Source: Streptacidiphilus carbonis (lineage in GTDB: Bacteria; Actinomycetota; Actinomycetes; Streptomycetales; Streptomycetaceae). Taken from it: 33,349 nucleotides of DNA. Positions within the stretch are counted from its first letter, which is position 1; every line of letters begins with the position of its first letter. The notes below the pieces were generated by a model, which had not been told where the DNA came from, searched no databases, and worked only from the letters and a program-made list of their open reading frames with translations. Shown here one piece after another: positions 18,476-24,813 of this stretch. A program made the position numbers and the translations under genes. The stretch is taken from assembly GCF_000787775.1 (NCBI RefSeq), contig NZ_BBPM01000004.1, positions 59,517-92,865 of the forward strand. The letters run 5' to 3'.

Positions 18476-19702
18476 TTATCTTCCTGAAGGCACGACCGCA
18501 ACAGAACGGCCCGAATCCCTACCGTCGGTGGCCGGCAATGCCCCAGAGTCACCCATCTCCGACATGACCAGGGCCAATGCCCCGAGCACCTCGGCGCGGC
18601 CGCCCAGGGTGCCGGGGACCACCGACAGTTGGCGGGCCGCGCTGGGGATGGCGTAGCGGGCCACCGACTCCCGGATCGGGTCCAGCACCAGGTCACCGGC
18701 CTCGGCGAGGTCTCCGCCGAGGATCACCCGGCGCGGGTTCAGCAGATTGCAGAGGTTGGCGACGCCGGTGCCGATCTGCCGGCCCACGTCGGCCAGCACC
18801 CGCCTGCAGCCCAGGTCGCCGCGCTGGGCCAGCTGGACCACCTTGGACAGCGTCAGATCGGTGCCGTGGCTGCTGCTGAGCAGGTTCAGGACGTGACGTG
18901 AGCCGACGAAGGTCTCCAGGCAGCCGCGGTTGCCGCAGCGGCACACCGGGCCCGACTCGTCCAGGGTGATGTGGCCGATCTCGCCGGCCGTCCCGCCCGG
19001 TCCGCGGTAGATCTGGCCCGAGATCACCAGTCCCGCGCCGACGCCGCTGGCGACCTTGATGTAGGCCAGGTCGGAAAGGCCGCGACCGGCCCCCCAGACC
19101 AGCTCGCCGAGCGCGCCCAGGTTGGCGTCGTTGTCGACGTAGACCGGCATCCCCAGCCGGCTGGAGAGCTCGCGCCCCGGGGCGATCCCGGTCCAGCCGG
19201 GCAGGATCGCGGTGGAGCCCAGCGCCCCGGTCTCGCCGTCGATGGGCCCGGGCACGCCCAGGCCGACCCCGATCACCTTGTCCGACCGGAACCCGGTCTG
19301 CTCCAGCAGCCGGGCCACCAGCTGCTCGGCCCGGCCGAAGCCCTGGTCCGCCGAGGCGTCGGTGTCCAGCGGCTCGCTCTCCTCGGCCAGCACCCGGTGC
19401 GCCAGGTTGCCCACCGCCACCCGGAGGTGCGAGTGGCCGAAGTCCACGCCCACCACGATCCCGGCGTCGGCGCTCAGCGAGACGCTGCGGGCCCGCCGCC
19501 CGCCGGAGGAGGTCGGGGTGACCACGACCGTGCCGACGTCCTTCAGCTCGCGCACGATGTTGGACACCGTGGCGGCCGACAACCCGGTGGTCCTGGCGAT
19601 CTCGGCCTGGGTCAGTGAGCCGGCCATCCGGACCGCCCTCAGCACCCGTTCCAGATTGGCCCGATGCAGAGAGGACTGCGATCCTGGCGTGTCCACGGAC
19701 AT
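18476..19702 (-). CDS. ROK-family transcriptional regulator, Rok7B7-like
   Basis: A 408-residue repressor-type ROK protein. An N-terminal winged helix-turn-helix (LTQAEIARTTGLSAATVSNI, about residues 30-50, then GRRARSVSL) precedes a sugar-kinase-like domain with VVGVDFGHSHLRVAVG (phosphate 1 motif), VYVDNDANLGALGE and GGTAGEIGHI. The zinc motif VCRCGNRGCLETF starts at Cys254. Sugar or sugar-phosphate binding to the ROK domain is expected to change DNA binding. In Streptomyces coelicolor the ROK gene rok7B7 adjoins xylFGH and has been linked to xylose transport and carbon control; the same gene order supports orthology here but does not prove it. ATG 19702 has GGGAGGG 6 nt upstream. The gene ends in TAA. 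Confidence 0.87.
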   Translation of the reverse strand: MSVDTPGSQSSLHRANLERVLRAVRMAGSLTQAEIARTTGLSAATVSNIVRELKDVGTVVVTPTSSGGRRARSVSLSADAGIVVGVDFGHSHLRVAVGNLAHRVLAEESEPLDTDASADQGFGRAEQLVARLLEQTGFRSDKVIGVGLGVPGPIDGETGALGSTAILPGWTGIAPGRELSSRLGMPVYVDNDANLGALGELVWGAGRGLSDLAYIKVASGVGAGLVISGQIYRGPGGTAGEIGHITLDESGPVCRCGNRGCLETFVGSRHVLNLLSSSHGTDLTLSKVVQLAQRGDLGCRRVLADVGRQIGTGVANLCNLLNPRRVILGGDLAEAGDLVLDPIRESVARYAIPSAARQLSVVPGTLGGRAEVLGALALVMSEMGDSGALPATDGRDSGRSVAVVPSGR

Positions 19703-19765
19703 GTTCCACCCTCCCAGGACCTGGCGACACGACCGTCCACCAGGGCCCGCCGCGTCATTGCGGCC

Positions 19766-19799
19766 AAGCTCAGTTACAACTTATGAAGCCTAAGCTCAG
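19766..19799 (-). promoter_or_regulatory. Direct repeats upstream of the ROK gene
   Basis: AAGCTCAG occurs at 19766-19773 and 19792-19799, 26 bp apart, in an A/T-richer patch (TTACAACTTATGAAGCCTAA between them). The patch lies 64-97 nt before the ROK start, where a promoter and autoregulatory site would be expected. No clear -35/-10 pair was found. Confidence 0.35.
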
Positions 19800-19915
19800 C
19801 CAATGGGGCGATGTCCCGTCAAGGCTGAAGGCCGATCGTTGCGAAACCTATGCCGGGATGCTGAAGGATTGGGATGATTTGCCCAGCAGGATTATTTGGT
19901 GGCGCCAGGCCGATC

Positions 19916-19941
19916 CGTCCGCTCAGTCGACCGAGCGGACG
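19916..19941 (-). terminator. Hairpin over the MFS transporter stop
   Basis: CGTCCGCTC (19916-19924) pairs perfectly with GAGCGGACG (19933-19941) across an 8-nt loop. It overlaps the leftward TGA stop at 19925-19923. It would end the MFS transcript before the ROK promoter region. Confidence 0.55.
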
Positions 19942-21203
19942 TTCCGGACCAGCACTCCGCCCAGCACTGTGACCACCGCCGTGGCCAGATACAGCGCGGT
20001 GTAGCCGCCCAGAAAGGCGACGATCGGCGCGGCCAGGGCGGGGGCCAGCACCTGCGGGCCCGAGTTCGCGACATTGATCACACCCAGGTCCTTGGCCCGG
20101 TCCAGGGCGGCCGGCAGCACCTGGGTCACCAGTGCCTGGTCCACCGCGAGGTAGATCCCGAAACCCGCGCCGAGGACCGCGGCGGCCAGCATCGCCGCCG
20201 TCCAGGAGTGAACGAAGGCGAGCAGGACCGCAGCCACCGCCATCACCCCGCAGCTGAGCGCCACGAACGGCTTGCGACGCCCGCGCCGGTCGGAGATCCG
20301 GCCGACCGGGACGGCGGTGGCCGCGGCGAACAGGGTGTAGATCACGGTCAGGACCAGCACGCCGGTGCCGGGGTCGCCGTAGTGGACCGAGTCGGTCAGG
20401 TAGAAGAGCAGGTAGAGCGTGCCCAGGGCGTTGCCGAGGTTGATCAGGAATCGGGTCAGCCAGGCCCAGGCGAAGTCGGGGTGGGCACCGGGGCTGATCC
20501 ACAGGCCGGCCAGGATCCGGCGCAGGTCCAGTGCCGGCCGCAGCGCCCGCGGCAGCACCGGCTCGGGGAAGCGCAGCGCGAAGGGCAGTGCGAACACCAC
20601 GGTGAGCAGGGCCAGAGTGCCGTAGCCGGACCAGATCCCGGTGAACAGCAGGGTGGTCAGCAGCGCGCCGAGGACCAGCCCGAAGGACTGCATGATCCCG
20701 GTCCAGCCGGAGACCTCGGCCCGCTGTCCGACCGGGACGGTGTCGGCGACCGGGGTGGTCACCCCGGCCAGCATGCCGTTCAGCCCCGCCTGGGCGACGC
20801 ACCAGCCCAGGGCCACACCAGGCACCGAGTGCTGGGCTGCGGTGAGGGCGAGTCCGGCCGCCCCGGCCAGGGCGCCGCCGACGATCCAGGGGCGGCGGCG
20901 GCCCCAGCGGCTCACGGTGCGGTCCGAGAGGGCGCCGGCCAGCGGGTTGGCGAAGACGGCGACCAGCGCGCCGGCCCCGGTGACCCAGGCGAGTGCGGTC
21001 GACTTGTGCGCCGGGTCGATGTGTTCCAGCTGCAGCGGTAGCAGGATCTGGATCGGCGTCATAAAAGCCATGAAGACAGCCAGCGTGGACAGGCTCAGTG
21101 CGGCCGTCCAGCCGGCCCGGACCCGGACGGTGGGCTCACCGAGGCCTGCGGGGCCCGGCGTGCCCGGTCCGTCGAGCGGTGTGTCCACACTGAGCCCGGG
21201 CAT
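19923..21203 (-). CDS. MFS transporter, probably glycoside uptake
   Basis: A 426-residue major facilitator with 12 predicted helices. The family loop 2-3 motif is ANPLAGALSDRTVSRWGRRR, and its second-half counterpart is VGRISDRRGRRKPFV. Hydrophobic segments run throughout, for example ALSLSTLAVFMAFM near the start and LYLATAVVTVLGGVLV at the end. It is paired with a GH1 beta-glucosidase on the same strand and with a shared palindromic operator, so uptake of a beta-glucoside or its aglycone-linked form is the likely job; the substrate is not readable. ATG 21203 (MPGLSVDTPL) is chosen because GGGAG sits about 5 nt upstream. ATG 21227 lacks one and abuts the operator palindrome. Confidence 0.82.
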   Translation of the reverse strand: MPGLSVDTPLDGPGTPGPAGLGEPTVRVRAGWTAALSLSTLAVFMAFMTPIQILLPLQLEHIDPAHKSTALAWVTGAGALVAVFANPLAGALSDRTVSRWGRRRPWIVGGALAGAAGLALTAAQHSVPGVALGWCVAQAGLNGMLAGVTTPVADTVPVGQRAEVSGWTGIMQSFGLVLGALLTTLLFTGIWSGYGTLALLTVVFALPFALRFPEPVLPRALRPALDLRRILAGLWISPGAHPDFAWAWLTRFLINLGNALGTLYLLFYLTDSVHYGDPGTGVLVLTVIYTLFAAATAVPVGRISDRRGRRKPFVALSCGVMAVAAVLLAFVHSWTAAMLAAAVLGAGFGIYLAVDQALVTQVLPAALDRAKDLGVINVANSGPQVLAPALAAPIVAFLGGYTALYLATAVVTVLGGVLVRNVRSVD

Positions 21204-21228
21204 CTGCACTCCCAACCCACCGCGCATG

Positions 21229-21251
21229 GAACATGAGGTGATCTCATGTTC
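21229..21251. promoter_or_regulatory. Perfect palindromic operator at the MFS promoter
   Basis: GAACATGAG (21229-21237), spacer GTGAT, CTCATGTTC (21243-21251) is a perfect 9-5-9 inverted repeat. It begins 25 nt before the MFS start and would cover the transcription start predicted from the adjacent -10. The same architecture recurs at 22728-22750. Confidence 0.75.
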
Positions 21252-21256
21252 GCGCG

Positions 21257-21285
21257 AGTGTAGTGGCGGCCCGGACCGCTGGGAA
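21257..21285 (-). promoter_or_regulatory. Candidate promoter of the MFS gene
   Basis: Reading leftward, TTCCCA (21285-21280) and TACACT (21262-21257) are 17 bp apart. Transcription would start near 21250, inside the palindrome, so a bound repressor would block initiation directly. Confidence 0.45.
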
Positions 21286-21351
21286 GGGGTCGGGGTCCGG
21301 TCCGCCACGGGGTCGGTCCGCGACGGGTCGGCCGCGGCCTGGGCGGCCGGG

Positions 21352-22698
21352 TCAGCCGCGGCGGTGCTCGGCGATCCGGTCGCGGTACCAGGCGTAGGAG
21401 GCCTTGGGGGTCCGGACCTGGGTCCCGAAGTCCACATGGACCAGGCCGAAGCGCTGGTGGAACCCCTCGGCCCACTCGAAGTTGTCCAGCAGCGACCAGG
21501 TGAAGTAGCCGCGGACGTCCACGCCCCGGGCCACCGCCTCGGCCACCGCGTCGATATGGTCGCGCAGGTACGTGATCCTGTCCCCGTCGTCGACCACGCC
21601 GTGCACCGGCCGGTCCGGCTGCGAGCAGCCGTTCTCGGTGACCCACAGCGGCGGCAGCGCGTCGCCGTACCGCTCCGCTGTCCCCACCAGCAGCTCGGTG
21701 AGCCCGTCCGGCACCACCGGCCAGCCGAACGCGGTGCGCGGGTACGCCTCCTCGGGCTCGGCCAGATCGAAGGGCAGCGGGCCCCCCGGGGTCTCCGGCG
21801 CCTTGATCCAGGTCGGGTTGTAGTAGTTGAGACCCAGGCCGTCCAGCGGTGCGGCGATGGCCGCCAGGTCGCCGTCCCGGATCAGGCCGCCCCAACCCGG
21901 GTCGGCCACACCGTAGTCGGAGAGGTCGGGATAGCGGCCGAGCAGCAGCGGATCGTTGAACAGCCGGTTGTGCAGGTTGTCGTAGGCCCCGGCGGCCGCG
22001 AGGTCCGCGGCGGTCCCGGCGGCCGGGCGGACCGGCGTGCAGTTGTTGGCGATCAGCACCTGCCCGGCGCCGTGCGCCCGCAGTGCGGCCACCGCCAGTC
22101 CGTGGGCCAGCAGTTGGTGGTGCGCCGCCGGGAGCGCGTCCAGCATCAGCGCCCGGCCGGGGGCGTGGACGCCGAAGGCGTAGCCGTAGGCCATGTGCAC
22201 GAACGGTTCGTTGAGGGTGATCCAGCGGCCGACCCGGTCGGCCAGGCGGTCCGCGGTGACCGCCGCGTACTCGGCGAAGCGGTGCGCGGTGTCCCGGTTC
22301 AGCCAGCCGTTCTGCTGCTCCAGGACCTGCGGGAGGTCCCAGTGGTACAGCGTCGGGACGGGGTCGATCCCGGCCCCGAGCAGTTCGTCCACCAGCCGGT
22401 CGTAGAAGTCCAGGCCGGCCTGGTTGACCCGGCCGGAGCCGGTCGGCAGGATCCGCGGCCAGGAGACCGAGAAGCGGTAGGCGTCCAGGCCGAGGCCCTT
22501 CATCAGGGCCACGTCCTCGGGGAAGCGGTGGTAGTGGTCGCAGGCGGTGTCGCCGGTGTGGCCGTCGCGGACCGCGTCCGGACGCCGGGCGAAGGTGTCC
22601 CAGACCGAATCGCCCCTGCCGTCCTCGTGGGCCGCGCCCTCGATCTGGTAGGCGGAGGTGGAGGCGCCCCAGGTGAACGAGGCTGGAAGCTGCGGCAT
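21352..22698 (-). CDS. GH1 beta-glucosidase, intracellular
   Basis: A 448-residue family 1 glycoside hydrolase with a single (beta/alpha)8 barrel. The acid/base is Glu164 in ITLNEPFVHM and the nucleophile is Glu355 in WVTENGCSQ. Other hallmarks are FTWGASTSAYQIEGAA near the start, YRFSVSWPRI, and GYFTWSLLDNFEWAEGF near the end. No signal peptide is visible, so it should cleave beta-glucosides after import, which suits the MFS gene 148 nt downstream. ATG 22698 is preferred to ATG 22752: it begins with the conserved MPQLPASFTWG, has AAGGAG 10 nt upstream, and the longer form would run through the operator at 22728-22750. Confidence 0.93.
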   Translation of the reverse strand: MPQLPASFTWGASTSAYQIEGAAHEDGRGDSVWDTFARRPDAVRDGHTGDTACDHYHRFPEDVALMKGLGLDAYRFSVSWPRILPTGSGRVNQAGLDFYDRLVDELLGAGIDPVPTLYHWDLPQVLEQQNGWLNRDTAHRFAEYAAVTADRLADRVGRWITLNEPFVHMAYGYAFGVHAPGRALMLDALPAAHHQLLAHGLAVAALRAHGAGQVLIANNCTPVRPAAGTAADLAAAGAYDNLHNRLFNDPLLLGRYPDLSDYGVADPGWGGLIRDGDLAAIAAPLDGLGLNYYNPTWIKAPETPGGPLPFDLAEPEEAYPRTAFGWPVVPDGLTELLVGTAERYGDALPPLWVTENGCSQPDRPVHGVVDDGDRITYLRDHIDAVAEAVARGVDVRGYFTWSLLDNFEWAEGFHQRFGLVHVDFGTQVRTPKASYAWYRDRIAEHRRG

Positions 22699-22727
22699 CG
22701 GCGATCCACTCCTTGGCAGTTCTCGAC

Positions 22728-22750
22728 AAACATGAGCTTCATTCGTGTTC
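22728..22750. promoter_or_regulatory. Operator-like palindrome between GH1 and TetR genes
   Basis: AAACATGAG (22728-22736), spacer CTTCA, TTCGTGTTC (22742-22750) has the same 9-5-9 layout as the perfect site at 21229-21251 and matches it at 15 of 18 arm positions. It lies in the 93-nt divergent region. TAGCGT (22767-22762, minus) is a candidate -10 for the GH1 gene, and TACACC (22766-22771, plus) is one for the TetR gene with its -35 region overlapping the site. Confidence 0.65.
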
Positions 22751-22791
22751 ACTGTTCGCCAACGCTACACCCGATCCGGCAGAGTGGGGGC

Positions 22792-23409
22792 ATGCACACC
22801 GCAGTACGCCGCCGTCCCGTCCAGCGCCGCAGCCTGGAGCGCTTCGAGCGGATCCTGGACTCCTGCGCCGAGCTCCTGGACGAGGTCGGCTACACCGCCC
22901 TCACCACCAAGGAGGTGGCCCGCCGGGCGCAGGTGCCGATCGGCACCCTGTACCAGTTCTTCCCCGGCGTCGAGGGGCTGCTCGGCGCGCTCGCCGAGCG
23001 CAATCTGGAGCACTTCACCGACCGGCTGGCCCGCCGGGTCGAGGCCGAGCAGCCCGCCCACGCCGGCGCGCTGGTCGACCTGGCGGTCGAGGAGTACGTC
23101 GCCATGCACCGCTCCGTCCCCGGCTTCGGGGTGGTGGACTTCGGCGCGGTCGGCATCACCGAGGACGAGCACAACCTGCATCTGCTCGACGAGGTGCTGG
23201 ACAACAACTCGGCGGTGGCCGAACGCCTGTGGACCTTCGCCGCCGACCTGCTGGGCACCGGCGGCGACCGCCCCGACCCGAGGCTCTCCCTGCGCATCGC
23301 GCTGGAGTGCGCGGACGCCGTCCTCCGCCTCGCGTTCCGCACCGATCCCGAGGGCGACCCGGCCCTGATCGCCGAGTGCAAGCGGCTGCTGCGCGGCTAC
23401 CTGTCCTGA
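22792..23409 (+). CDS. TetR-family transcriptional regulator of the GH1/MFS unit
   Basis: A 205-residue one-component regulator. The N-terminal HTH (about residues 20-65) reads RILDSCAELLDEVGYTALTT, then KEVARRAQVPIGTLYQFFP, the usual TetR helix 2-3 and recognition helix. The rest is an all-helical ligand-binding and dimerisation domain with no strong family match that I recognise. The ATG at 22792 has only a weak purine-rich GTGGGGG upstream. The gene is divergent from the GH1 gene, and the shared 9-5-9 palindrome in the gap and before the MFS gene supports local repression plus autoregulation. TetR control of a beta-glucosidase is less common than LacI or ROK control. A convergent hairpin terminator separates it from the chitinase gene. 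Confidence 0.88.
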   Translation: MHTAVRRRPVQRRSLERFERILDSCAELLDEVGYTALTTKEVARRAQVPIGTLYQFFPGVEGLLGALAERNLEHFTDRLARRVEAEQPAHAGALVDLAVEEYVAMHRSVPGFGVVDFGAVGITEDEHNLHLLDEVLDNNSAVAERLWTFAADLLGTGGDRPDPRLSLRIALECADAVLRLAFRTDPEGDPALIAECKRLLRGYLS

Positions 23410-23424
23410 CGCCGTGGACGCCGA

Positions 23425-23458
23425 GTGCCCGCCGCGAGGTCCTCCACGCGGCGGGCAC
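23425..23458. terminator. Bidirectional terminator between TetR and chitinase genes
   Basis: GTGCCCGCCGCG (23425-23436) pairs perfectly with CGCGGCGGGCAC (23447-23458) over a 10-nt loop. It lies in the 63-nt gap between two convergent stops (23409 and 23473), so it can serve both. Confidence 0.75.
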
Positions 23459-23472
23459 GGCATGTTCTGCTG

Positions 23473-24813
<1,341 letters not shown>

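Follow-up and report, generated by a model that had tools for sequence, protein, structure and literature searches.

We identified two 9-5-9 palindromes that, as far as sequence comparison allows, are very probably operators of the TetR-family regulator encoded at 22792–23409, which would repress an MFS transporter gene, a GH1 gene and its own gene until released by a ligand. Both palindromes are located in a 33,349-bp stretch of the Streptacidiphilus carbonis genome (hereafter "the window"; the genome around it comprises 8.46 Mb in 139 contigs), in which the following features are relevant:

18476–19702, minus strand: ROK-family regulator with a winged-helix domain (Pfam), downstream of the MFS gene and in the same direction
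19923–21203, minus strand: MFS transporter, 426 aa (Pfam MFS_1, 4.7e-34; MFS_2, sugar transport, 4.4e-14)
21229–21251: candidate operator 1, 9-5-9 palindrome with perfectly paired arms, 25 bp before the MFS start codon
21257–21262, minus strand: possible MFS -10 box (TACACT), found by eye and missed by the promoter scan
21352–22698, minus strand: predicted GH1 beta-glucosidase, 448 aa (TIGR03356 BGL; Pfam GH1, 9.6e-149)
22728–22750: candidate operator 2, imperfect 9-5-9 palindrome, 29 bp from the GH1 start and 41 bp from the tetR start
22792–23409, plus strand: TetR-family regulator, 205 aa, divergent to the GH1 gene
22906–22959, plus strand: helix-turn-helix of the TetR protein, residues 39–56, TKEVARRAQVPIGTLYQF (model helices 39–45 and 50–56)
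23473–24813, minus strand: GH18 chitinase-like gene, convergent with tetR

Operator 1 (GAACATGAG-GTGAT-CTCATGTTC) presented complete pairing of its arms (9/9 positions); operator 2 (AAACATGAG-CTTCA-TTCGTGTTC) presented pairing at 6/9 positions, which counts against its being a TetR operator. The two copies are identical at 15 of 18 arm positions and both have a spacer of 5 bp, confirming a first-pass annotation of this DNA that had described one palindrome shared by the MFS promoter and the GH1/tetR intergenic region. Both copies lie, by eye, close to ribosome-binding or start regions; operator 2 directly precedes the ribosome-binding region of GH1 and lies on the promoter side of tetR, and the distance given for operator 1 assumes that MFS translation starts at ATG 21203, with GGGAG 5 nt upstream (an alternative ATG, 21227, adjoins operator 1). 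The same annotation had placed both copies at predicted transcription starts, a placement that is deduced from position: TACACT, if it is a -10 box, would put the MFS transcription start at the edge of operator 1, but the promoter and terminator scan was empty, with no σ70 promoter-like site in 19700–23500; the empty promoter scan also counts against the operator model.

The occurrence of this palindrome pair is far above chance expectation. At ≤3 mismatches, the pattern was found in the window at operators 1 and 2 only, with no operator-type site at the ROK gene or the GH18 gene, while 100 shuffled windows yielded a mean of 0.01 matches (largest number, 1). When the whole genome was searched with the 16 core arm bases (≤3 mismatches), three sites were found, i.e., the two operators and a site on another contig (C77:23182), and the reversed-pattern control gave none; the many unrelated genome-wide copies that the first-pass annotation had listed as evidence against its model were thus not observed. 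Across 14 genomes of the genus, the same loose setting gave 79 forward and 17 reversed matches in total, and single 3-mismatch sites elsewhere are therefore not trustworthy alone.

The regulator itself is a typical two-domain TetR protein, with a TetR_N helix-turn-helix domain (Pfam PF00440, 41.6 bits; cut-off 24) and a C-terminal ligand-binding and dimerisation domain (TetR_C_22, 62.6 bits; cut-off 26.4) that comprises eight helices in the model; the fold of the model matched 3bni. A palindromic site at both its own and its target promoters, as expected of a TetR repressor, is evident at the level of sequence. By TetR gene, the nearest named relative is Streptacidiphilus jeojiense (94% identity). 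Of 116 TetR relatives, 80 were kept for locus comparison and divided by an identity cut, rather than by a tree, into a subgroup (L004–L032; 54–94% identity in the best segment) and a distant group (L033–L083; ≤50%). The subgroup is represented in Streptacidiphilus, Kitasatospora, Streptomyces, Streptantibioticus, Nonomuraea, Saccharopolyspora, Embleya, Yinghuangia, and Catenulispora, and its recognition helix reads IGT in all 29 rows, as compared to IGS (47 rows) or VGS (4 rows) in the distant group. At ≤2 mismatches, the consensus occurred 40 times in 25 of the 29 subgroup loci and not once in the 51 distant loci; patterns with a spacer of 4 or 6, or with reversed, mirrored or swapped arms, all gave zero matches in both sets. 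In the locus from the nearest species (L004), both sites were present, at 3 mismatches. Three subgroup loci (L021, L025, and L031) contained no site even at ≤4 mismatches, which counts against the model; the DNA of these loci, which for L021 amounts to 5.4 kb only, also contained no relatives of GH1, MFS, GH36, M19, or GH5.

A wider comparison covered 297 family genomes, drawn from a larger group, in which sites were counted at ≤1 mismatch and subgroup membership was assigned at E ≤1.4e-50 (the next value being 3e-49). Sites were found in 75 of the 101 genomes with the TetR subgroup and in none of the 196 genomes without it (Fisher 2e-48, not corrected for shared ancestry), and the reversed pattern was found in none of the 297. 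In genus g9, the only genome with a subgroup protein (G258) is also the only one with a site; in genus g6, sites occurred in seven of the eight subgroup genomes and in no other genome. The 26 subgroup genomes without a site at 1 mismatch count against the model. Taken across genera, the comparison shows that the site, the TetR subgroup and the target genes occur together. This association also bears on whether the palindromes might be bound by another regulator, such as the ROK protein encoded downstream of the MFS gene, with their place beside tetR being incidental. ROK proteins commonly control sugar genes, and this one contains a winged-helix domain; however, the sites track the TetR subgroup, and tblastn found a ROK relative nearby in only two of the 29 subgroup loci (L004 and L024), making binding by such a regulator highly unlikely.

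To assign genes to sites, we used the subgroup loci at ≤2 mismatches and 30 further loci from the 297-genome scan (L094–L123) at ≤1 mismatch, excluding neighbours with <35% identity; genes in these loci were called with a simple GC-position filter, which misses genes. Nearly all sites (39/40 and 31/32, respectively) precede tetR/GH1, an MFS gene, a GH36 alpha-galactosidase gene or a gene encoding an M19-like protein with a CBM32 module. In the subgroup loci, 25 sites precede tetR (and GH1 as well in 23 cases), seven precede GH36, seven precede the M19-like/CBM32-like gene, and one is unassigned; in the second set, 23 precede GH1 (two of them also tetR), eight precede the MFS homologue, and one is unassigned. 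Conservation in orthologous loci, which the first-pass annotation had put forward as a check, was thus observed for MFS, GH1 and tetR alike in the relatives examined. Two strong sites, L008:1749 (1 mismatch) and L104:1501 (perfect), adjoin no recognised target and count against the model. An MFS gene follows GH36 in four loci (L007, L009, L014, and L020), and in L009 and similar loci the MFS relative and the end of the GH36 gene overlap. The M19-like protein (L009:10373–12442 and relatives, with a site upstream in seven loci) has a C-terminal domain nearest to CBM32-like modules of glucanase/chitosanase; its predicted structure was unusable (mean pLDDT 37). In the genome studied here, this protein was matched only in its CBM part, and GH36 homologues (50–51% identity) are present on other contigs without a site at 3 mismatches.

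Within the genus, a site precedes GH1 in all 13 orthologues found, beginning 51–138 bp upstream; one genome (G070) presented no GH1 match. In five of these 13 genomes (G037, G042, G050, G058, and G066), tetR is located on a different contig than GH1 and its site, and in several g14 genomes (e.g., G142, G122, G089, and G156) GH1 and its site are found tens to hundreds of kb from tetR or on another contig, suggesting that the site travels with the target genes rather than as part of one DNA segment. In Streptacidiphilus sp. 4-A2, the GH1 gene beside tetR was matched in two pieces (L024:4350–5890), and the locus contains no MFS relative.

The GH1 protein scored above the curated cut-off of the beta-glucosidase model (TIGR03356, 572.9 bits; cut-off 478.5) and below the cut-offs of the 6-phospho models, its translation contains TLNEPF and VTENGC (the TLNEP and TENG motifs hold the two catalytic glutamates of GH1 enzymes), and no signal peptide was visible by eye; these features are those of a putative beta-glucosidase with unphosphorylated glycosides as substrates, in keeping with import through an MFS transporter rather than through a phosphotransferase system. 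The MFS protein passed the MFS_2 model (52.3 bits; cut-off 27), scored far below the cut-off of TIGR00792 gph (37.8; cut-off 231.35), and also matched multidrug-resistance models below threshold. We propose that a TetR dimer would bind AA(C/T)(A/G)TGAG-N5-CTCA(T/C)GTT at the promoters of the MFS gene and of the divergent GH1/tetR pair, blocking transcription of MFS and GH1 and limiting its own synthesis, until an intracellular ligand derived from a sugar or glycoside frees the DNA; the MFS protein would then import the glycoside for cleavage by the cytosolic GH1 enzyme. An alternative, in which the TetR protein activates transcription or a compound such as a toxic aglycone is exported by the MFS protein, would agree with the sub-threshold multidrug-resistance matches and with the fact that MFS exporters are often among the targets of TetR regulators. 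We nevertheless consider it unlikely: the position of the operators at start regions fits repression, and the MFS protein passes a sugar-transport model, has a site in common with a cytosolic glycosidase and has relatives that overlap the GH36 gene end.

The first-pass annotation had limited the regulon to the transporter, the hydrolase and the regulator itself; the tracking of the TetR subgroup by the sites supports the TetR protein as cognate regulator of these genes, but the regulon extends beyond two sites. In the genus, it probably also includes an apparently secreted protein with SGNH-like and ricin-lectin parts and, in most species but not in S. carbonis, an endoglycoceramidase-like GH5 protein. 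The third site of the present genome (C77:23182; L158:5183–5203) is located 114 bp before a gene whose product is apparently secreted and combines a ricin-B lectin domain with a GDSL/SGNH-like part (scoring 29 bits, under the Pfam cut-off of 32.9). The same asymmetric site recurs before orthologues of this gene (72–100% identity) in 13 of 14 genus genomes, the present one included, and a chance match was rejected on these grounds; in G019, only pieces of such a gene lie behind similar sites.

A fourth site in the genus (AACATGAG-N5-CTCGCATT) precedes a GH5 gene whose product contains a GH5_C domain. The nearest relative of solved structure of the genus protein (L148) is Rhodococcus endoglycoceramidase II (PDB 2osw; 4.3e-36), placed in GH5_28, an endo-glycosylceramidase subfamily (PMC3526467); the genus protein resembles this enzyme in its GH5 match and GH5_C domain, yet it is encoded in relatives and not in the S. 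carbonis genome, and its activity is a prediction. The site was found upstream of the GH5 gene in all ten genus genomes with an orthologue (L159–L168, with the G070 gene lying in two frames), and no orthologue was found in the present genome, G002, G019, or G046. A deviant arm, AATGCGAG, is common to the GH5 site and to the operator that G002 and G019 carry before GH1, suggesting recognition of both by one and the same protein. The GH5 upstream regions, within and beyond the genus, were examined in 51 of the 145 genomes with a GH5 match. Outside the genus, 11 of 35 such regions from genomes with the TetR subgroup presented a site at ≤4 mismatches, as compared to none of six from genomes without it, a difference that alone is not decisive; the counts become 9/10 in the genus and 10/35 outside it if the regions are cut at the extrapolated start codon, which the sites of L164 and L197 overlap. 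In g14 genomes such as G083, G057, and G184, the GH5 match is interrupted by in-frame stops (one or two), which may reflect gene decay or misassembly.

These additional targets affect the choice of substrate. The plant aryl-glucoside or aglycone inducer of the first-pass annotation is a conjecture, possible but not favoured by the comparison, and under the same TetR protein and operators the substrate could be a plant aryl-beta-glucoside or a cellobiose-like glucoside, with GH5, GH36 and the SGNH-like protein as later recruits. This reading, which we regard as plausible but somewhat doubtful, agrees with tetR, GH1 and MFS being the commonest genes behind the site, with the match of GH1 to the beta-glucosidase model, and with the lack of a close GH5 orthologue in this genome; it agrees less well with the site that every genus genome with an endoglycoceramidase-like orthologue carries before that gene, and with the seven sites that precede GH36 among the 40 of the subgroup loci. 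The constancy of the site before the SGNH-like/ricin-lectin and GH5 genes makes a glycolipid-derived sugar a live alternative, and the presence of GH36, GH5, SGNH-like/ricin-lectin and M19-like/CBM32 genes behind sites indicates a glycolipid-derived or mixed oligosaccharide about as well; judged by these predicted functions, a glycolipid head-group sugar or a mixed alpha-galactoside/beta-glucoside is about equally possible as substrate. More tentatively, one operator may serve a TetR switch for glycolipid scavenging, in which the secreted GH5, SGNH-like/ricin-lectin hydrolase and M19-like/CBM32 proteins would cleave the sugar head off glycolipids of fungal, plant or animal origin, the MFS protein would import the head sugar, and cytosolic GH1 (plus GH36 in Streptomyces) would finish its breakdown, with the head-group glycoside or the lipid part as inducer. 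S. carbonis, which has no GH5, would then depend on the SGNH-like protein or on neighbours.

Autorepressing TetR regulators encoded divergently to a catabolic or transport gene are known (e.g., TetR, KstR, and FadR). The regulon proposed here resembles them in the helix-turn-helix TetR_N domain, the all-helical C-terminal domain and a palindrome found both between the divergent genes and at another promoter, and differs in that the targets are glycoside hydrolases and an MFS protein of the sugar-transport type. In the CebR/BglC-type control of cellobiose use in Streptomyces, a LacI-family regulator represses a GH1 beta-glucosidase gene and a sugar importer gene; the target types are thus alike, whereas that system has a LacI protein, an ABC importer and another operator in place of a TetR protein and an MFS transporter. 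The fold match, 3bni, is a TetR-family protein of Streptomyces coelicolor for which the PDB records consulted give neither a ligand nor a regulon; judged by identity rather than by a tree, it is as similar to the window protein as are members of the distant group, the loci of which have no site. To our knowledge, TetR control of glycoside use has rarely been described. A review of hemicellulase regulation does not contain the term "TetR" (PMC10766802), and a search of the open-access literature, which leaves out most subscription journals, yielded no paper describing this regulon and no pointer to TetR control of an endoglycoceramidase in open-access literature listings. The regulon appears well supported and ordinary in kind, as TetR autorepressors of neighbouring operons are known, with an unusual set of predicted targets. 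It yields a precise operator for this TetR subgroup and a set of targets whose functions are uncertain, and could, when the inducer has been identified, be used as a promoter-operator part in actinobacteria. The proposed switch is found in many soil actinobacteria, with a glycolipid, instead of a simple plant glucoside, as its possible natural substrate; the endoglycoceramidase-like link would give a regulatory handle on possible glycosphingolipid use by these bacteria.

Two minor observations concern additional sites. Three genus genomes contain a near-identical site (one at 3 mismatches) at position 2001 of L230–L232, flanked by an inositol-monophosphatase-like gene and a gene encoding an apparently secreted beta-helix-like protein, which may represent a fifth site of the genus. 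Another site, found in a single genome (L142), precedes a phosphoesterase/ricin-lectin gene.
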